From Verrucomicrobiales bacterium (lineage in GTDB: Bacteria; Verrucomicrobiota; Verrucomicrobiia; Verrucomicrobiales; DEV007): 60,755 nt of DNA. Positions 17,213-26,748 of this stretch are shown in pieces. Numbering within the stretch: the first letter of the stretch is position 1; the number at the start of each line of letters is the position of its first letter. The position numbers and the translations under genes were made by a program. The stretch lies in contig JARGOP010000026.1 in assembly GCA_029233965.1 (NCBI GenBank), forward strand, positions 1 through 60,755. The letters are read 5' to 3'. Under the pieces are notes generated by a model that had not been told where the DNA came from, did no database searches, and saw only the letters and a list, made by a program, of their open reading frames with translations.

Positions 17213-18130
17213 ATGAGTGAGGAAAACAGCACAGAGGAAACCCTGGCGGAATATGGCTACGGCAGCGGAGGCGTAGGGCGGAAGATCGCAATTGTGATCC
17301 TGTCGGTCCTTTTCGTCGGCGCGGCCATTGCCGCGATCTGGCTCGGGCGCCTCTGGAGTGAATCACAGTCCAATGCCCTCACCATGGAGCAGCAGCTCAA
17401 CGATTTCTCGGGTCGGGTCAGCGAGCTGGAAAACAAGAACGCCGAGCTTTCCTCTCTTCTTGCCGACAAGCAGGCCGAAATGGAGCGCCTCCGCGAGGAG
17501 TGGATTTCGCAGGTCGAAACTCTCAAGGACCAACACAAAGAGCAGCTGCAGCGGACCTACGCGCAGATGAACGAAATCGTTTACGACAGCCGTAAGACGC
17601 TCAGCTACATCGGTGACATTGAGACCCGCCTCCGCGACGGCCAGAATCTTGACACGAAGGAAGCCGCTGAATTGCAAAGCGTCATCAACGGACTGGTCTT
17701 TCTCCACGAGCAATACAAAAAACCTCTCAATGAATTCCGGGAGCTGAATCGCTATTTCAATCAGCAGCTCGCTCAGATTCAGGCAGGGGAAGCCGACCCG
17801 ATCGAGACGACCCCGCTCGGAAAGCGCATCTTTCAGAACAAAAAGTTCAAAGAGGAGCGGAACCAGTACTTTGAGAACCAGGGTCGTCTCTCTGCTCTCA
17901 CGGAAGCCCGCAACCGGGTCGCCACCGCCTACAGCAACGCCCAGCGCCAGATGGCCGGGGTCTCTCTCGATATCAACCAATACCTCGCCCAGCTCGAATC
18001 AGTGGTCGATTCGAACGAGAGAAGCGCCGAAGACGTCACCGCCTTCTTCGAGAAATCGAAAGAGATCCTCAAAATTCATGACAAAATCCTGAGTATCGAG
18101 CCGCCGAAAACGCCGACAATTCAGCCATAG
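17213..18130 (+). CDS. Membrane-anchored coiled-coil protein, unknown function
   Basis: A protein of 305 aa. A short cytoplasmic tail (residues 1-24) is followed by one membrane span (about 25-45, start IAIVILSVLFVG), then a long helical region with strong heptad character at about 60-135 and more helices to the C terminus, which ends in a Pro/Thr tail. No enzymatic motif is visible. The layout recalls bacterial envelope scaffolds or septum-linked proteins, but I do not assign a family. It lies upstream of the efflux operon on the same strand, separated by 117 bp that contain the operator at 18197, so it is probably a separate transcription unit. AAGG precedes the ATG. Confidence 0.8.
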   Translation: MSEENSTEETLAEYGYGSGGVGRKIAIVILSVLFVGAAIAAIWLGRLWSESQSNALTMEQQLNDFSGRVSELENKNAELSSLLADKQAEMERLREEWISQVETLKDQHKEQLQRTYAQMNEIVYDSRKTLSYIGDIETRLRDGQNLDTKEAAELQSVINGLVFLHEQYKKPLNEFRELNRYFNQQLAQIQAGEADPIETTPLGKRIFQNKKFKEERNQYFENQGRLSALTEARNRVATAYSNAQRQMAGVSLDINQYLAQLESVVDSNERSAEDVTAFFEKSKEILKIHDKILSIEPPKTPTIQP

Positions 18131-18196
18131 ACGGTCCTTCCCGTTCTTCGTGGCGACGAGCTTTTTGACGATAAAAAACCTAATTTTTGCTTGCCG

Positions 18197-18218
18197 GTTT
18201 CAAACAACTGTTTGAAAC
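18197..18218. promoter_or_regulatory. Candidate TetR operator (22-bp inverted repeat)
   Basis: GTTTCAAACA and TGTTTGAAAC are perfect 10-bp arms separated by two bases. The site ends 29 nt before the ATG of the TetR-OMF fusion gene. Size and symmetry are typical for TetR-family repressors, and the neighbouring product carries a TetR DNA-binding domain, so autoregulation is the simple reading. A TTGACG element at 18165-18170 could be a -35 box, but I could not place a convincing -10. Confidence 0.75.
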
Positions 18219-18247: not shown

Positions 18248-20410
18248 ATGGCCAAGGCAAATCTGCAGCAATCTGAAACGAAGACCCGTATCCTCGATAC
18301 GGCGGAACAGCTGTTTTCAGATCACGGGTTCCGGGATGTTTCCCTGAGGCAAATCACCCGCGAAGCCGGGGTCAATATCGCTTCCGTGAATTATCATTTC
18401 GGTTCGAAAGAAGCCCTCATCGCCGAAGTACTTACTCAGGTTATCGCGCCGATCAATGAACAGCGTTTGCGCCTCCTCGACGAGGTCGAAGCGCGCTATG
18501 AAGGGCGTCCGGTTCCGATTGAGGAGATCCTCGAGTCGGTCCACCGCCCCGTCGTAAACCAGCTCACGGCATCCCCTCATCAGTCTTCAGTGTACCTCAA
18601 ACTCGCGGGCCGCTGTCTCGCGGAGCCAACTGAAAACTTTTCGGAGACGCTCGTGAATCTCTTCCGCGAAATGATCAGCCGCTTCATGAAGGCGGTTTCC
18701 TTTTCCCTCCCCCACGTGGCCGACACCGATCTCTTCTGGCGCATGCATTTCTCATTCGGGACGATGGTGTATGCACTCACGCATGGAGACCGGGTCACCC
18801 TCTTTTCGCAGGGACGGGTTCAGTCCACTGATCCGGAAGATATCCTGCGCCGCCTGATTGACTTCACCGCGGCCGGATTGCGGGCCGAATCCAGCGCGAT
18901 CGAAAAAGCACCGCCGAAAAAGACGCAGCCGAAAAAGAAGAAGGGAACCGCGGCTGCCGTCTCCGCCCTCGCTGCCCTCCTGCTTCTGAGCAGTTGCGAA
19001 TCCCTTTCCCCGCCCGACGCAAAGCACTTTGCTTCGGTGCAGGCCCCGGGGCACTGGATCGCCGGGAGTTCCTATCGTCCCGATACATTCCCCGACAGGC
19101 ACTGGATTGAAAACTTCTCGGATCCGAACCTTACGGCATTCGTCGATTCCGTCCTCGAAAACAACAAGGACCTCAAGGCGGCCCAGTCGAGAATCGAGAT
19201 CGCGAGGACCGCAGCCAACATCACGGCGGCCGATCTCTATCCACAGCTTCAGGGCGGTGGATCGGGCGCGCGGAACCTGCAGAACTTCATCGGGCTTCCG
19301 ATTCCGGGAACGCCTCCGGGGACCGTTCTCTCGACGCGGAACAATCAGTTCGGACTCTCCCTCGACCTGAGCTGGGAGATTGATCTCTGGGGCAGAATCC
19401 GTGCCGCGACGAAAGCTTCGGTCGCGGAGTTTGAAGCCTCTGAATATGATCGGGCCACGGCGGAACTTTCCCTCACGGGGCAGGCCGCGAAAGCCTGGTT
19501 CGCTCTGGCAGAAGCCAGGGATCAGGTCGCCCTCACGAAATCGACGATTCAAACTTTCTCGGGAACGGAAGCGCTTCTCCGCGACCGCTTTGAGTCCGGC
19601 ATCGAAGAGAACGGGAGAAACTTCGCCTCGGAGCTTCTTCTCGCCGCCGCCGACGTTTCGAGGGCTCAGGCATCGCTTCAGAACCAGCTCGATCTCGCCC
19701 AGCGGACCTCCCGCCAACTGGAAGTCCTGGCCGGCCGCTACCCCGCGGGCGAGGCCGGCAAGACGGCCGAACTGCACGGTTTTCCCGGCCGGGTTCCGGC
19801 AGATCTGCCATCCACCCTTCTTGAGCGACGCCCTGATCTGGCCGCCGCCGAACGCCGCATCGCGGCAGCGGACGAACGCGTCTTCGAAGCGAAACGTTCC
19901 CTGCTTCCGGCGATTGGCCTGACGAGCAGCTTTGGAACCTCGAGTGAAGATGTCAGTCAGCTCCTCGACAGCGGCTTCACGGTCTGGGGAGTGGCGGGAA
20001 ATCTCGCGCAACCGATTCTCCAGGGAGGTCGGCTCCGCGCCAACATCGCACGGCGTCAGGCTGAGTTGGAGCTGTCCGCCACGGAGTTCGAACAGGCGGC
20101 GCTGACCGCTTTCTCCGAAGTCGAAAACGCGCTCGCCTCGGAAGAGTTCCTCAGCAATCGCGTCACCGCGCTCATTCGCACGGCCCGCCTTTCGGCCGAA
20201 GCCTATGAACGTGCCCGCAGCGAATTTGAAAACGGCACCGGAGACATTCTCACGGTCCTGGCCTCCCAGCAGCAGGAATTCACGGCCCGTTCGCAGTTGC
20301 TCAGCGTCCGGCGACTGCGCCTCGAAAACCGGGTCGATCTCTATCTCGCACTCGGCGGAAGTTTCCGCCCTTACGATCCCCCTCCATCGACAAAGAAGAC
20401 TGAATCATGA
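18248..20410 (+). CDS. TetR regulator fused in frame to an outer membrane efflux factor
   Basis: One uninterrupted frame of 720 aa. Residues 12-60 are a TetR helix-turn-helix domain (FRDVSLRQITREAGVNIASVNYHFGSK), continuing to about 215 as a CecR/CerR-like C-terminal domain. A Lys/Pro-rich linker (about 216-231) runs into a hydrophobic stretch and lipobox LLLSSC with Cys250. Residues 251-720 are a TolC/NodT-type outer membrane factor with two OEP repeats (WWIE-like HWIENFSDPNL, LSWEIDLWGRI, LLERRPDLAAAERR). I found no ATG or stop at the junction; a TTG at the linker is the only weak internal start. The stop overlaps the adaptor gene (ATGA). Start ATG 18248 chosen over an upstream TTG at 18191 that would lie before the operator. 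Confidence 0.9.
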   Translation: MAKANLQQSETKTRILDTAEQLFSDHGFRDVSLRQITREAGVNIASVNYHFGSKEALIAEVLTQVIAPINEQRLRLLDEVEARYEGRPVPIEEILESVHRPVVNQLTASPHQSSVYLKLAGRCLAEPTENFSETLVNLFREMISRFMKAVSFSLPHVADTDLFWRMHFSFGTMVYALTHGDRVTLFSQGRVQSTDPEDILRRLIDFTAAGLRAESSAIEKAPPKKTQPKKKKGTAAAVSALAALLLLSSCESLSPPDAKHFASVQAPGHWIAGSSYRPDTFPDRHWIENFSDPNLTAFVDSVLENNKDLKAAQSRIEIARTAANITAADLYPQLQGGGSGARNLQNFIGLPIPGTPPGTVLSTRNNQFGLSLDLSWEIDLWGRIRAATKASVAEFEASEYDRATAELSLTGQAAKAWFALAEARDQVALTKSTIQTFSGTEALLRDRFESGIEENGRNFASELLLAAADVSRAQASLQNQLDLAQRTSRQLEVLAGRYPAGEAGKTAELHGFPGRVPADLPSTLLERRPDLAAAERRIAAADERVFEAKRSLLPAIGLTSSFGTSSEDVSQLLDSGFTVWGVAGNLAQPILQGGRLRANIARRQAELELSATEFEQAALTAFSEVENALASEEFLSNRVTALIRTARLSAEAYERARSEFENGTGDILTVLASQQQEFTARSQLLSVRRLRLENRVDLYLALGGSFRPYDPPPSTKKTES

Positions 20411-21582
20411 AACGTTTTGGCAAAGTCATCATTGGCCTCGCAATTTTCTTCGTCGGCATCGCCTTCTCTGTCCTCCTCTGGATCACCCGTCCGGAGGCGG
20501 CAAAGAAAGAGAATGTGGTGAACCTTCCGGTCGTGGAATACATGACGGTGAGCAAGGGCGAAGAAGTCTTCCAGCTTCCCTCCCAGGGCATCATTCAACC
20601 TGACAAGCGTACTCAACTCTCTGCGGAAGTGGGCGGAAAAGTGATTGAAGTCTCTCCCGCCTTCGAGGCGGGCATGCAGGTGGCGAAGGGCGATATCCTC
20701 ATCCGGATTGATAAGACCGACTATGAAGCAATCGAAGCCCAGGCGGCGAGCACCCTCGCGGAAGCAGAAGTGACCCTCGTTTCGGAGGAGGCAAAAGCGG
20801 ATCAGGCGATGCGAGACTGGAGGCGCCTCGGCAATCCGGGGGAACCGACCGAACTCCTTGCCCGGAAACCACAACTCAACAGTGCGCGTGCCCGTGTCGC
20901 CTCCGCCCGGGCCGCCCTCGCAAAGGCGAAGAATGACGTGGAGCGAACCACTGTTCGCGCCCCCTACGACGGAGTCATCGCCTCGACTTCGACCGAGCTG
21001 GGAAACTACCTTGCCCCCGCAGCTCCCGTTGCGGAAATCTACACAGCCTCCCCTTTTGAAGTCCGGCTTCCTTTGTCAGTGGACAGTGCCGCTTTTCTTC
21101 CCGGCAATGCGAAGGGGGAACCCACGGGAACCGCGAAAATTCAGGCCACCGCCGCCGGGAAGACACGACGATGGAAGGCCGAGATCGTTCGCAGCGAAGG
21201 TGAAATCGACCGCGCCACCCGGTCGCTCTATCTCATTGCCCGAATCGGTGCCCCGATTGACCCGGGCGGTATTGAGATGCGCCCCGGTCTCTACGTCGAC
21301 GCTTCCATTCCGAGCCGCCCCCTTCCTGACGTGGCCAAAATCCCTTTCCGTGCCTTTCGAGATCTGAACGAAGTCGTCATCATCACCGAAAGCAATCAAA
21401 TCGATTTCCGCAAGGTGACCGTAATCCACCGTGAGGGGGACTTCGTCTACGTCAGCGACGGGCTCAAAGAAGGCGAAAAAGTCACCCTGACGGAACTCCC
21501 CGATCTTGTCGCGGGGATGAAAGTGGATGCGTCACCGGCAAAAACCCCGACCGAAAAGTCAGCCACCTCTATCTCCGAATAA
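20407..21582 (+). CDS. RND efflux periplasmic adaptor (MFP)
   Basis: A membrane fusion protein of 391 aa that bridges the inner membrane pump to the outer membrane channel. One N-terminal anchor (start FGKVIIGLAIFFVGIAFSVL) is followed by the biotinyl/lipoyl half-motif GGKVIEVSPAFEAGMQVAKGD, a short helical hairpin (about 110-180), the second lipoyl half RAPYDGVIASTSTELGNYL, and a beta-barrel and proximal domain. It overlaps the fusion gene by 4 nt upstream and is followed one nt after its stop by the pump, so the three genes form one transcript. Confidence 0.94.
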   Translation: MKRFGKVIIGLAIFFVGIAFSVLLWITRPEAAKKENVVNLPVVEYMTVSKGEEVFQLPSQGIIQPDKRTQLSAEVGGKVIEVSPAFEAGMQVAKGDILIRIDKTDYEAIEAQAASTLAEAEVTLVSEEAKADQAMRDWRRLGNPGEPTELLARKPQLNSARARVASARAALAKAKNDVERTTVRAPYDGVIASTSTELGNYLAPAAPVAEIYTASPFEVRLPLSVDSAAFLPGNAKGEPTGTAKIQATAAGKTRRWKAEIVRSEGEIDRATRSLYLIARIGAPIDPGGIEMRPGLYVDASIPSRPLPDVAKIPFRAFRDLNEVVIITESNQIDFRKVTVIHREGDFVYVSDGLKEGEKVTLTELPDLVAGMKVDASPAKTPTEKSATSISE

Positions 21583-21583
21583 C

Positions 21584-24500
21584 GTGAGTGAAGAATACAA
21601 AGACTCCGGAGTGATTTACTGGTTCAGCCGCAACCATGTCGCGGCGAACTTTCTCATGCTCCTCATTGTCGTGATCGGACTCGGGACCTGGCCGTCGATC
21701 AAAAAAGAGATTTTCCCCGAGATCTCGATCGACGCAATCAACGTCACTGTCCCCTACCCGAACGCAACTCCGACCGAGGTGGAAAAGGGAATCATCGTGC
21801 CCATCGAAGAGGCGATCCAGGACGTCGACGGCATCGACACGATTCGGTCGTATGCGAATCAGGGAAACGCCACCGTCACCGTGGAAGTTGCGACCGGGTA
21901 CGATCCCCGCAACGTCATGGACGACGTGAAAACGCGCGTCGATGCAATTCAGAACATCGCGGAGGAAGCCGAGGAACCCATTCTCGAAGAGATCCTCATT
22001 AAGGCGCAGGTAATGAGCGTTTCCGTATCGGCCGACACCGACGAGCGAACCCTGCGTGAGCTCGCGGAACAGGTCCGCACCGGTCTCCTCACCTACAAAG
22101 GAACAGACCAGCCCGTGACCCAGGCGGCTCTCGCCGGGGTTCGCGAGTATGAAATCTCGATTGAGGTTTCGGAGCAGACCCTGCGACAGTACGGCCTCAC
22201 TTTCGATCAGGTTGCCGGAGCAGTGAGGCGCGCCTCACTCGACTTACCGGGCGGCTCCGTGAAAACCGAAGGCGGCGAAGTGCTATTGCGCACCGAGCAA
22301 AGACGATACTCCGCGGAGGAATTTCGTGACATCATCGTGATCACGCGCCCCGACGGCTCGCGAGTCGAGCTCGGTGATATCGCCACGATCATTGATGGAT
22401 TTGAAGAAGACTCCATTGAGACCCGGTTCGACGGAAGACCCTCCATCCTCATCAACGTCTTCCGCGTCGGCAATGAAGACACCATCAAAATCGCCGACAC
22501 CGTCAAAAAATATGTCTACGAAGTCGCGCCCGACGCCCTGCCCGAAGGCGTGACTCTTGAAATCTGGAAGGACGATTCACTCTATCTCTCCGGACGACTC
22601 AACCTCCTCGCGAAAAACGGAATCTTCGGACTCATCCTCGTCGCCCTGGTCCTGACCCTGTTCCTGCGCCCCAGCCTTGCACTGCTCGTCTCAATCGGCA
22701 TCCCCGTGTCCTTCGCCGGAGCGATTGCCTTGATGCCCTACACCGGGATTTCGATCAACATGATCTCCCTCTTCGCATTCATTCTTGTTCTCGGGATCGT
22801 GGTCGATGACGCGATTGTTGTCGGGGAAAATGTCTACAGCAGGATGCAGAGAGGGGAACCCCCCCGGGACGCAGCCCCGCGCGGAACTCATGAAGTCGGT
22901 ATCGTCGTCGTCTTCGGCATTCTTACGACGGCGATGGCCTTCACGCCGATGCTCGGGCTCAGCGGTGTGAGTGGCAAGATCTGGCCTAACATCCCCCTAA
23001 TCGTCATCCCCACCCTGCTCTTCTCGCTCCTTCAGTCCAAGCTCATCCTGCCGTCACACCTCGCCCTCCTGAAGCCCGTGAGTGAAGAAAAGGAACCCGG
23101 GCCCATCATTCGTTTTCAGCGTCTTTTCTCCCGCGGGCTTGAGGTTTTCATCGACCGGTATTTCCGTCCGGTGCTCTCCTTTTCCCTTCGGAATCGATAT
23201 CTCGTCCTCATCGCTTTCCTCTCCATTTTCGTGATCACGATCGGCACCGTCGGCTCGGGCCATATCAAGTTTGTTTTCTTTCCGGAAGTGGAGACCGACG
23301 TCATCAATGCGAAAATCAAGATGGCACAGGGAGTCTCCTTTGAGACCACCGAGGCAGCCGTCCGGAAGATTGAAAAAAACGCCTTCACCCTGAACGAAAA
23401 GTTCAAGGGACCGGACGGCGAAGGAGTCATCAAGCACATGTTGGCAAGCGTCGGCACACAACCCCTCCTCCAGGGAATGGGGGCCCCGGGAGGCATGATG
23501 CCGAAAGGCAACAACCTCGGTGAGGTGACGATCGAACTTCGCCCCTCCACCGAACGGGATGCCACGGGAGTTGAAATCGTCTCGGAGTGGCGGAAACTCG
23601 TCGGCCCGATTCCTGGCGCCGTCGAACTGACCTTCGCGACAGAATCGGCCGCCGGCGGTAACGCGATCGATCTCGAGATCGTCGGTGACAATCTGGATGA
23701 TCTCGAAAAGGCGACCGACGAAGCCAAGGCCGCTCTCGCCGAATTCTCCGGAGTGATCGACATTTCCGACTCCGATGTCGAAGGCAAAAGAGAGCTCAAG
23801 CTCAACATCCTGCCACGGGGAACCGCCCTCGGACTTCGGCTCGATGATGTGGCGCGTCAGGTGCGGCAGGGTTTCTACGGTGATCTCATCCAACGACTTC
23901 AGCGCGGCAAAAATGAGGTCGAGGTCTATGTCCGCTACCCTCTCACCGAACGCGCTTCCATTGCCGATCTGCAGAACATCAAAATTCGCACGCCGGACGG
24001 GGCCGAGGTCCCTTTTTCAGAAGTTGCCACCGTCGAGTTCGGCCGCAGCAACGCGACGATTCAACGCACCGACCAGCAGCGCGCGATCCGGATCACGGCG
24101 GACGTCGACAAGGCGCAGGGCACGAACGCGACTGAAGTGGTTCGCTCTTTAACGGCCGGCAGTGTAGAGAAAACGAAGTTCCAGCTTTGGCGGGAGAACA
24201 TTCAAAACCTGCTTCGCGAAAAAACAGGCCGGCCTCCCCTTCCGGAAGTCGACAAGGGAGCTCTCGAAAAAATCGTCGGGAAATATCCCGGTGTTCAATA
24301 CAGCTTCGAAGGCGAACAGAAAGATCAAAACGAATCAGTCAGCGAAATGGGGAGCAAGGCCGTTCTCGCCCTTCTCGGCATGTACATTCTCATGGCGATT
24401 CCCCTGCGATCCTACATTCAGCCGGTCATCGTCATGTCCGTGATCCCCTTCGGACTTGTCGGCGCTGTTTTCGGTCATCTCCTCATGGGATTCAATTTTT

Positions 24501-24874
24501 CGATCATGAGCATGTGCGGCATCGTCGCGCTCGCCGGAGTGGTCGTGAACGACAGTCTCGTCCTTGTCGATTATGTGAATCGCCACGTTAAAGACGGCCA
24601 GTCGATCCACGATGCCGCCTCGGAGGCCGGCGCAGCCCGCTTTCGACCGATTCTCCTCACCTCGCTGACGACCTTTGCCGGCCTCACGCCGATGCTTCTG
24701 GAAACAGATGTGCAGGCGAGATTCCTCATCCCCATGGCCGTCTCGCTCAGTTTCGGCATCCTTTTTGCCACGGTGATCACCCTGATCCTGGTGCCCTGCA
24801 TCTACCTGATGCTCGAGGATGTCGCCCGCCGTTTCGGTCATGACCGGGTTAAACACCTGCAATCCGGGGATTAA
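21584..24874 (+). CDS. RND-family efflux permease
   Basis: An inner membrane proton-driven pump of 1096 aa (AcrB/MMPL-superfamily). It has the usual 12-span duplicated layout with two large periplasmic loops. TM4 contains the proton-relay acidic pair in GIVVDDAIVVGENV, and the second half has GVVVNDSLVLVDYVNR. The porter region begins FPEISIDAINVTVPYPNATPTEVEKGI. Shape and motifs fit the HAE (drug) type rather than the heavy-metal type. The likely start is GTG 21584, one base after the adaptor stop, because the family N terminus (YWFSRNHVAANFLM) follows soon after. Substrate unknown. Confidence 0.94.
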   Translation: MSEEYKDSGVIYWFSRNHVAANFLMLLIVVIGLGTWPSIKKEIFPEISIDAINVTVPYPNATPTEVEKGIIVPIEEAIQDVDGIDTIRSYANQGNATVTVEVATGYDPRNVMDDVKTRVDAIQNIAEEAEEPILEEILIKAQVMSVSVSADTDERTLRELAEQVRTGLLTYKGTDQPVTQAALAGVREYEISIEVSEQTLRQYGLTFDQVAGAVRRASLDLPGGSVKTEGGEVLLRTEQRRYSAEEFRDIIVITRPDGSRVELGDIATIIDGFEEDSIETRFDGRPSILINVFRVGNEDTIKIADTVKKYVYEVAPDALPEGVTLEIWKDDSLYLSGRLNLLAKNGIFGLILVALVLTLFLRPSLALLVSIGIPVSFAGAIALMPYTGISINMISLFAFILVLGIVVDDAIVVGENVYSRMQRGEPPRDAAPRGTHEVGIVVVFGILTTAMAFTPMLGLSGVSGKIWPNIPLIVIPTLLFSLLQSKLILPSHLALLKPVSEEKEPGPIIRFQRLFSRGLEVFIDRYFRPVLSFSLRNRYLVLIAFLSIFVITIGTVGSGHIKFVFFPEVETDVINAKIKMAQGVSFETTEAAVRKIEKNAFTLNEKFKGPDGEGVIKHMLASVGTQPLLQGMGAPGGMMPKGNNLGEVTIELRPSTERDATGVEIVSEWRKLVGPIPGAVELTFATESAAGGNAIDLEIVGDNLDDLEKATDEAKAALAEFSGVIDISDSDVEGKRELKLNILPRGTALGLRLDDVARQVRQGFYGDLIQRLQRGKNEVEVYVRYPLTERASIADLQNIKIRTPDGAEVPFSEVATVEFGRSNATIQRTDQQRAIRITADVDKAQGTNATEVVRSLTAGSVEKTKFQLWRENIQNLLREKTGRPPLPEVDKGALEKIVGKYPGVQYSFEGEQKDQNESVSEMGSKAVLALLGMYILMAIPLRSYIQPVIVMSVIPFGLVGAVFGHLLMGFNFSIMSMCGIVALAGVVVNDSLVLVDYVNRHVKDGQSIHDAASEAGAARFRPILLTSLTTFAGLTPMLLETDVQARFLIPMAVSLSFGILFATVITLILVPCIYLMLEDVARRFGHDRVKHLQSGD

Positions 24875-24921: not shown

Positions 24922-26748
24922 ATGAGGAGACGGAACCGCTGGCTGATAAGACGACTGGGGCACAGGATCGGGAGCTTTATCGGGGAAAACTCGATCGATT
25001 TCCTGCCCATCCGGAAGGGCTTTCAGGGCTATCAACCCGGGGATCTCCGGGCCGATGCACTCTCAGGCCTGAACGTCGCCCTGCTTGCCTTCCCTCAGGG
25101 CATGGCCTACGCCGTGATCGCCGATCTTCCGATCCAGTATGGCGTCGTTTCCGGAGCCATTGCCGCGATCATCGCCCCGCTCTTTGCCGGATCGAGGCAC
25201 ACCATTCTCGGTCCAACGAACGCGACCGCTTTCATGTTGTTCGCCAGTTTTGCCGCTTTTTCCTCGGCGGACCGGCTCTTTTATCTTCCCATGCTCGTTC
25301 TCCTCATCGGAGTCCTGCTTACGATCGGAGCCCTTTTCCGCGTTGCCGAGCTGGTTCAATACGTGAGCCGATCTGTCGTCGTCGGCTACATCACAGCGGC
25401 CGCAGTACTCATCATCGCCAATCAGATGCGGCATGTCCTCGGCGTGGAACTGCCCGATGCCATCTCTGAAGGACCGAAGACCTTTTTCACGATCATCCAG
25501 GGCACCGCTGCGGAGTTCACCCATCTGAAATGGCAACCCGTGACCCTTTCCGCGGCTACTTTTCTGATCTGGTTTTTCCTGAGGAAGAAACTGCCGAAAC
25601 TGCCGGTTTTTGCGATCACTCTGCTTCTCGTCTCGCTCGCCTACTATTTCCTCCATCGCTATGCACACTGGGAAGTCGCCACCTTTGAGGCCTTCGCGAT
25701 TTCTGATCTGAAACCCCGCCTTCCTGAAATCAGCAGCCGCGGAATTTTCACCGATCTCAGCCGCTTGATCGGACTCGCCTTTTCGATCGCTTTTCTCGCC
25801 GCACTGGAAAATTCCGTCATGTCGAAGACTCTTGCGAGTCGGGTCGGGGACCGGCCCGATGTGAATCAGGACATGCTGAGCGTTGGCCTCGCCAACCTCG
25901 CCGCTTCCGTGACCGGGGGAATGCCGGCCTCAGGATCACTGACCCGTTCGGCGCTCAATTTTTCAAGTGGTGCCGTATCCCGTCTTTCCAGCATTTTCAG
26001 CGGACTTCTCTGTATCGCAGGTCTGCTTCTCCTCGGCGACTACATGGTTCATGTTCCGAAATGCAGCCTTGCGATGCTGGTCATGTGTATTGCTGCTTCC
26101 GTGATCAACCAACACCACATTCGGATTTCGCTCTACGCGACGTCCTCTGACGCGGCGGTGCTTCTCACGACGTTTATCGCCGCTCTTGTGATGCCACTCA
26201 ACGTCGCAATCTTCCTTGGCGTCGGCATTTCGATCATGCTTTACCTGAGAGCAGCGAGTCGCCCCTACCTTACCGAGTATGAGTTCTCCGAACACGGTGA
26301 GCTGCGCGAGGCGGGTGAAAAACGAACCCGTCCCATGCCTGCGATTTCCATCGTGCACGTCGAGGGTGATCTTTTCTTCGGCGCCGCCGAGCTTTTTCGC
26401 ACGCAGATCCAGAAGACGTCACTGGATCCGGATCTCAGAGTCATCATTCTGAGACTGAAAAACGCCCGCCACCTCGATGCCACGAGCGTCGTTGCCCTCG
26501 AGGAGATGGTCCAGTTCCTCAACGCTCACGGCCGCCATGTCATCATCAGCGGGGCGACGAAGGAGGTCTATCGGGTCCTCAAGAACGCCGGAACCGTCGA
26601 GGTCATTGGCCGAAGCAACATTTTTGCGAACAATCCCAGGAATCCGAATCTCTCGACGAGAAACGCTTTGAAACGGGCGCAGGAGCTGCTGGGAACGACA
26701 GAGGCCGACATCCGGATTTTCTACGATCCGAACAAGGACAAAAAGTAA
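24922..26748 (+). CDS. SulP-family anion transporter with STAS domain
   Basis: A protein of 608 aa. Residues about 35-430 hold the 14-helix SulP transport core (DLRADALSGLNVALLAFPQGMAYAVIA, LGPTNATAFM, SVTGGMPASGSLTRSALNF). Residues about 470-590 form a cytoplasmic STAS domain with the DATS loop seen in anti-sigma antagonists and SulP proteins. SulP carriers move sulfate, bicarbonate or dicarboxylates. It lies 47 nt after the RND pump on the same strand and might be cotranscribed, but there is no overlap and no functional link is clear. Confidence 0.93.
   Translation: MRRRNRWLIRRLGHRIGSFIGENSIDFLPIRKGFQGYQPGDLRADALSGLNVALLAFPQGMAYAVIADLPIQYGVVSGAIAAIIAPLFAGSRHTILGPTNATAFMLFASFAAFSSADRLFYLPMLVLLIGVLLTIGALFRVAELVQYVSRSVVVGYITAAAVLIIANQMRHVLGVELPDAISEGPKTFFTIIQGTAAEFTHLKWQPVTLSAATFLIWFFLRKKLPKLPVFAITLLLVSLAYYFLHRYAHWEVATFEAFAISDLKPRLPEISSRGIFTDLSRLIGLAFSIAFLAALENSVMSKTLASRVGDRPDVNQDMLSVGLANLAASVTGGMPASGSLTRSALNFSSGAVSRLSSIFSGLLCIAGLLLLGDYMVHVPKCSLAMLVMCIAASVINQHHIRISLYATSSDAAVLLTTFIAALVMPLNVAIFLGVGISIMLYLRAASRPYLTEYEFSEHGELREAGEKRTRPMPAISIVHVEGDLFFGAAELFRTQIQKTSLDPDLRVIILRLKNARHLDATSVVALEEMVQFLNAHGRHVIISGATKEVYRVLKNAGTVEVIGRSNIFANNPRNPNLSTRNALKRAQELLGTTEADIRIFYDPNKDKK

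Follow-up and report, generated by a model that had tools for sequence, protein, structure and literature searches.

Why should a repressor that binds DNA and a channel destined for the outer membrane be made as a single polypeptide? The question is raised by a gene of the window analysed here, that is, the whole stretch of 60,755 nucleotides, which is one entire contig among the 151 that make up the genome of a bacterium of the order Verrucomicrobiales. A first-pass annotation had proposed that one frame of 720 codons joins a TetR repressor to an outer membrane factor (OMF), and that the life of the regulator would be bound to that of its own channel. The observation is confirmed: TetR-OMF fusions are found in a group of uncultured Verrucomicrobiota. 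Judged by comparison of sequences, the fusion is genuine, conserved and recurrent. The mechanism that we propose for it is plausible, and the gene switch that it contains probably controls an efflux pump.

Domains and junction of the fused protein

The frame runs on the forward strand from an ATG at 18248 to a stop at 20408-20410, and encodes 720 amino acids; it is already open from an in-frame TTG located upstream, at 18191. Its N-terminal half (residues 1-215; 18248-18892, forward strand) is a TetR-family regulator, with a helix-turn-helix domain, TetR_N (residues 15-61, 58.1 bits for a Pfam cut-off of 24), and an all-helical ligand domain, TetR_C_30 (residues 100-210, 90.1 bits for a cut-off of 26.3). 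Its best solved relative, over residues 6-215, is the structure 2fbq, described as PA3006 of Pseudomonas, a protein named PsrA in an excerpt of PMC10304680. PsrA is a TetR-family, fatty-acid-responsive autorepressor, and the likeness extends over the full length of the TetR half. It goes no further than likeness: the half scores 150 bits on the PsrA equivalog model NF053516, under the cut-off of 300, so that we can only call it PsrA-like, and PsrA is a single-gene regulator, devoid of a channel part.

The C-terminal half, the mature part of which would begin at Cys250 (18995-20410, forward strand, stop included), is a NodT-type outer membrane factor, of the kind also represented by OprM and CusC. 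The NCBIfam model TIGR01845 (NodT) matches residues 242-704 along positions 2-459 of its 460, with 295.4 bits for a cut-off of 210.05, while the Pfam model OEP matches this part of the protein in two stretches. The closest solved relative is OprM by sequence, and OprN, CusC or OprM by fold (Foldseek); 2fbq comes up in the same fold search against the other part of the model (rank 44, TMt 0.80). With these members of the NodT family the OMF half shares a whole-model match, a lipobox-type cysteine and the fold. By contrast, its signal is internal, more than 230 residues away from the N-terminus and behind a DNA-binding protein. The AlphaFold2 model of the fused protein (alignment of 34 rows, mostly single-domain; pTM 0.60) has a confident TetR domain, with block pLDDT mostly between 77 and 98, and an OMF that is mostly confident, apart from a weak stretch at residues 564-581; pLDDT falls below 50 over residues 218-254, at the junction.

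There, a basic linker (residues 216-232; 18893-18943, forward strand) would be the n-region of the internal signal. It is followed by a hydrophobic stretch ending with the lipobox LSS-C (residues 233-250; 18944-18997, forward strand), where Cys250 is encoded at 18995-18997. In an alignment of 12 fused proteins Cys250 is invariant and the letters of the linker vary. More widely, in all of the 27 fused proteins described below a cysteine, defined by our script as the last one near the start of the OMF, stands 27-38 residues past the TetR domain. The best hydropathy over 11 residues at this place ranges from 1.95 to 2.95, and at least one lysine or arginine separates the TetR domain from the hydrophobic stretch in every case. 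Basic n-region, hydrophobic stretch and cysteine compose the pattern of a predicted lipoprotein signal, and the genome encodes Lgt and LspA. Two relatives are peculiar: in L007 asparagine precedes the cysteine, which is unusual for a lipobox, and the n-region of L163 has a single basic residue. TetR_N and a segment that is hydrophobic according to hydropathy (residues 233-249) belong to one chain, which is the architecture of a transmembrane regulator, with a segment expected here to be cleavable. A programmed frameshift yielding free TetR was also considered, and rejected: an in-register canonical slippery heptamer is present at the junction in none of the 27 frames. Judged from the sequence, one frame thus encodes a PsrA-like TetR repressor and the precursor of an OMF of the lipoprotein type, both of them intact, and the ligand domain, lysine-rich linker, Cys250 and full OMF that the first-pass annotation had read in it are all present.

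Conservation, repeated joining and loss

The fused frame is unbroken in 27 distinct genomes, that of the window included, the relatives being from 90% down to 39% identical (two frames, in G144 and G128, are cut by contig ends, and locus L052 is a duplicate of L006). Counted from a protein-search table at E 1e-80 or better, 25 of the 288 genomes searched from the order, again with the window, have one stop-free frame extending from query residue 10 or earlier to residue 705 or later, at identities of 100 down to 40%. Across the phylum, a strict threshold of E 1e-100 left three matches in 387 genomes: the window, G046, with a fused gene, and G406, where a stop separates the halves. The earlier reading had it that the linker contains neither a stop nor a good internal start; across the 27 frames the linker is free of stops and frameshifts, and none of the internal start codons recurs at a conserved position. 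A frameshift of the sort that resequencing might reveal, from an error of sequencing or assembly, is ruled out by the same open frame in so many genomes. The gene is real because it is kept across many species, and translation of TetR and OMF as a single chain is well supported by the sequences.

Both halves are under similar and strong purifying constraint. Between the window and L003, dN is 0.042 for TetR, 0.057 for the OMF and 0.405 for linker and signal, with dN/dS of 0.030, 0.031 and 0.168, respectively, at dS above 1. Ten pairs were compared: five gave a value for both halves (window-L003, and four between 0.068 and 0.167), two gave a value for TetR alone (0.144 and 0.152) and three gave none for either half, owing to saturation at synonymous sites. 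The long frames L164-L168, also around OMFs, were considered as further fusions and dismissed, for they had no TetR hit; their extra residues, as printed, read like the arginine- and glycine-rich translation of a non-coding frame.

A search for homologues with both domains in one chain, suggested by the earlier reading, thus returned many, but it also revealed that elsewhere the two proteins are split neighbours. Among the best 80 loci of a longer list from our scan of named genomes, 35 are TetR-OMF pairs, 34 of them split and one fused (L052). Split pairs come from Verrucomicrobiota, Planctomycetota, Acidobacteriota, Latescibacterota, Gemmatimonadota and others. Their TetR and OMF are homologous to the two halves and follow one another as in the fusion, but as two genes. 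In the 20 junctions that we read (18 from Verrucomicrobiota, one from Acidobacteriota and one from Latescibacterota), the OMF frame is offset by 2 in 12 cases and by 1 in one case, while in seven both genes use one frame and a stop separates them. Eleven of the 20, all among the 12 with an offset of 2 and two of them outside Verrucomicrobiota, have a 4-base NTGA overlap between the OMF start and the TetR stop. With such a geometry, joining requires only an indel or the loss of a stop, and the fusion would have originated from two neighbouring genes, in many cases overlapping, whose frames became joined.

The phylogenetic tree suggests that this took place at least twice. The tree (67 rows, midpoint root, several forks open) took 11 of 50 TetR-less OMF frames, and omitted 18 of 47 split pairs, weaker or truncated, as well as the duplicate L052. 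Among its fused and split rows, two changes account for the fused state: the first fused clade lies in the family of the window, the second in another family, with the addition of G128, a member of the window's family whose placement hints at transfer or misplacement. A single origin was rejected: constraining the 27 fused rows against the 29 split ones lowered the log-likelihood by 179.8 (p-AU 1.8e-94; LG+G4 model, run after the tree had been seen). When TetR-less rows are counted too, the fused label needs seven changes (L038, labelled 'omfonly', is actually a gene cut by a contig end). This is because TetR-less OMFs nest among fused ones, a sign of repeated loss of the TetR half.

The genus of the window, with 33 of the 74 genomes tallied, illustrates this variety. 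The gene is fused in 17 (16 whole, G144 cut), and an OMF without TetR is found in eight (G008, G077, G010, G022, G001, G013, G166 and G044, of which G044, at only 43% identity, may not be an orthologue). Four genomes have pieces at contig ends (G014, G125, G207, G002) and four have no clear orthologue (G003, G009, G018, G020). In G008 (L013/L177) the TetR half is reduced to scraps before an intact OMF, the pump genes are missing and the palindrome described below is altered in one half: this reads as a fusion undone by decay. The idea of a regulator bound to its own OMF therefore needs nuance. The link is lasting, but it is not obligate, given those eight genomes and the separate neighbour genes seen elsewhere.

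The pump operon and a candidate operator

What would the switch control? The fused gene overlaps by four bases (ATGA) the gene of a periplasmic adaptor, or membrane fusion protein (20407-21582, forward strand; TIGR01730 above cut-off), which is followed by an RND permease (21527-24874, forward strand; ACR_tran, 578 bits). With adaptor and permease beside the OMF, this is a tripartite RND pump operon. The permease frame as given overlaps the adaptor gene by 56 bases; homology in relatives starts mostly at residue 15-30, so that the true start is probably later. Neighbours are a 305-residue protein upstream (17213-18130), which had no Pfam hit at E 0.001, and a sulfate permease family protein after the RND permease (24922-26748). 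In most fused relatives the adaptor is some 40-55% identical, against some 54-81% for the N-terminal piece of the RND permease in view, and within the genus its identity is also under that of the OMF half. Downstream sequence is in view for 25 fused loci, and in 24 of them adaptor and RND genes come next; the pump genes follow three of the eight TetR-less OMFs of the genus and are gone in the other five, counts which are not phylogenetically independent. The one exception among fused loci, L007 (in G019), retains the fused gene but shows neither adaptor nor RND gene behind it; a relative of the sulfate permease lies directly downstream.

Ahead of the gene, a perfect palindrome, GTTTCAAACA-AC-TGTTTGAAAC (18197-18218), with arms of 10 nucleotides that are 100% complementary, ends 29 bases before the ATG at 18248 and is the likely operator of the TetR half. 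It fits the consensus of the PsrA site, G/CAAAC(N2-4)GTTTG/C, as published in the excerpt of PMC10304680, an operator type common to PsrA and the window. We scanned for [CT]AAAC N2-4 GTTT[GA] from 150 bases before the start of the TetR domain to 15 bases into it. The pattern is present upstream of 24 of the 27 fused genes, for 0.09 expected after first-order Markov resampling; the three without a match are L010, L125 and L040, the latter with only 43 bases in view. It occurs in 14 of the 47 split pairs, for 0.15 expected. In two members of the second fused clade, L044 and L157, two tandem sites of this type, 30 bases apart, precede the gene. A sigma-70-like promoter was looked for at the palindrome of the window, and none was found.

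Within the genome of the window, the exact sequence CAAACNNNTGTTTG is found at this site alone. With one mismatch it has 21 hits per strand against 17 for the control, hardly above; of the 42 strand hits, two are the exact site and 40 carry one mismatch. One of these copies, CTAACAACTGTTTG, is at G000:C119:39315-39328. TetR_C_30, likewise, occurs once in the genome at E 0.001 or better, so that the genome shows no separate paralogue of that family. Exact site and ligand domain being both unique, the TetR half most likely acts on its own operon, through this putative operator.

A bifunctional precursor and its rivals

These observations suggest to us, with somewhat more confidence than doubt, that the gene encodes a bifunctional precursor, cleaved on export, whose TetR part represses its own operon in a 1:1 ratio with the channel. 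While still the N-terminal part of a nascent chain, TetR would fold and dimerise in the cytoplasm, and the internal signal would insert with its N-terminal side in. Lgt would then lipidate Cys250, signal peptidase II (LspA) would cut before it, and the OMF would travel to the outer membrane. The TetR fragment would retain the signal peptide as a membrane anchor, unless later proteolysis frees it, and it would repress the operon from the site at 18197-18218 until it binds a ligand, which would be hydrophobic and might resemble a fatty acid. Since each channel subunit would come with one repressor, the pump would be placed under negative feedback at a fixed 1:1 ratio. Export, cleavage, tethering, repression and ligand are all inferred here. 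A bolder version, which we put forward tentatively and believe somewhat less than we doubt it, makes the repressor the cytoplasmic pro-piece of the channel: signal peptidase II would mature the channel and leave a repressor tethered to the membrane on the spent signal peptide, so that the cell would count exported channels one by one, repressing the pump operon from the membrane, near hydrophobic ligands.

In favour of a precursor speak the fused frame of 27 genomes, the operator-like site before 24 of them, the adaptor and RND genes after 24 of 25, and the Lgt and LspA encoded in the genome. Against it we must place the close relatives that keep an OMF without TetR, as well as L007, where the fused gene survives the loss of the pump with asparagine before the cysteine, and L163 with its single basic residue. 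The promoter missing from our scan of the palindrome, and the operator pattern found in just 14 of 47 split pairs, point in the same direction.

Several other explanations must be weighed. A cytosolic protease could cut the exposed basic linker before export, giving soluble TetR and a normal OMF precursor, in which case fusion would merely replace translational coupling. The linker is indeed basic, variable and predicted with low confidence, and split relatives make the halves as separate proteins; yet no shared motif is apparent by eye in the 27 linkers, and LspA, which the genome encodes, should need no more than the signal and the cysteine to make its cut. We consider this account unlikely. 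Alternatively, there would be two products by initiation, the full chain for TetR and most of the OMF from internal start codons. At least one ATG, GTG or TTG lies between codons -45 and -11 before the cysteine in 21 of the 27 frames (an ATG in 11), so that some OMF could arise separately. A Shine-Dalgarno-like stretch accompanies some of these codons, as in L003, where GAGG stands ahead of an ATG at -16; L008 has an ATG at -7, and in L013 the OMF probably starts inside the TetR remnant. But six frames are without any such codon, positions differ from one frame to another, and the window has just a TTG at -39 (18878), before which the scan found no Shine-Dalgarno-like match. Extra internal initiation is thus possible in some relatives, L003 for example, while as a general explanation we think it quite improbable.

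There remains the idea that the halves share a frame through an artefact or by neutral accident, be it a sequencing frameshift or the recent loss of a stop with one half dead. It might draw on the split state of relatives outside the fused clades, and on the errors that metagenome-assembled genomes can contain. It is contradicted by the conservation of the frame in 27 distinct genomes, by the strong constraint apparent on both halves and by at least two origins on the tree, and we give it hardly any credence.

Is there anything comparable to the precursor that we favour? ToxR, CadC and ChiS are transmembrane transcription regulators whose membrane segment connects to a sensor domain. Like the fused protein, they combine, within one chain, a domain that binds DNA with a membrane segment, and the fused protein would, if our model is right, also act from the membrane; its segment, by contrast, would be the cleavable signal of an exported channel. 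Membrane regulators, counted widely in a survey (PMC10269533), bind DNA while anchored, as reported in an excerpt of PMC11856585. There, a full TetR replacing the DNA-binding domain of the membrane protein ChiS partially restored tetO-dependent induction. The words 'TetR', 'lipoprotein' and 'signal peptide' are absent from the main text of the survey. A search of the titles and abstract openings of open-licence papers, which is weak evidence of absence, named no TetR-OMF fusion. TetR-controlled RND operons and membrane-bound regulators are already known, and we see the fusion as a new variant of both.

In this natural case a single polypeptide comprises a gene switch and the export product that the switch probably controls; selection has maintained the arrangement in a clade, and on the tree it arose at least two times. 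If the cleavage model holds true, a spent signal peptide acquires a role as the anchor of a repressor, and the supply of repressor is coupled 1:1 to the export of channels. The fusion also makes a clean genetic system for asking how Sec, Lgt and LspA tolerate a folded DNA-binding domain before an internal lipoprotein signal, and the relatives that lost the TetR half or the pump provide its natural controls.
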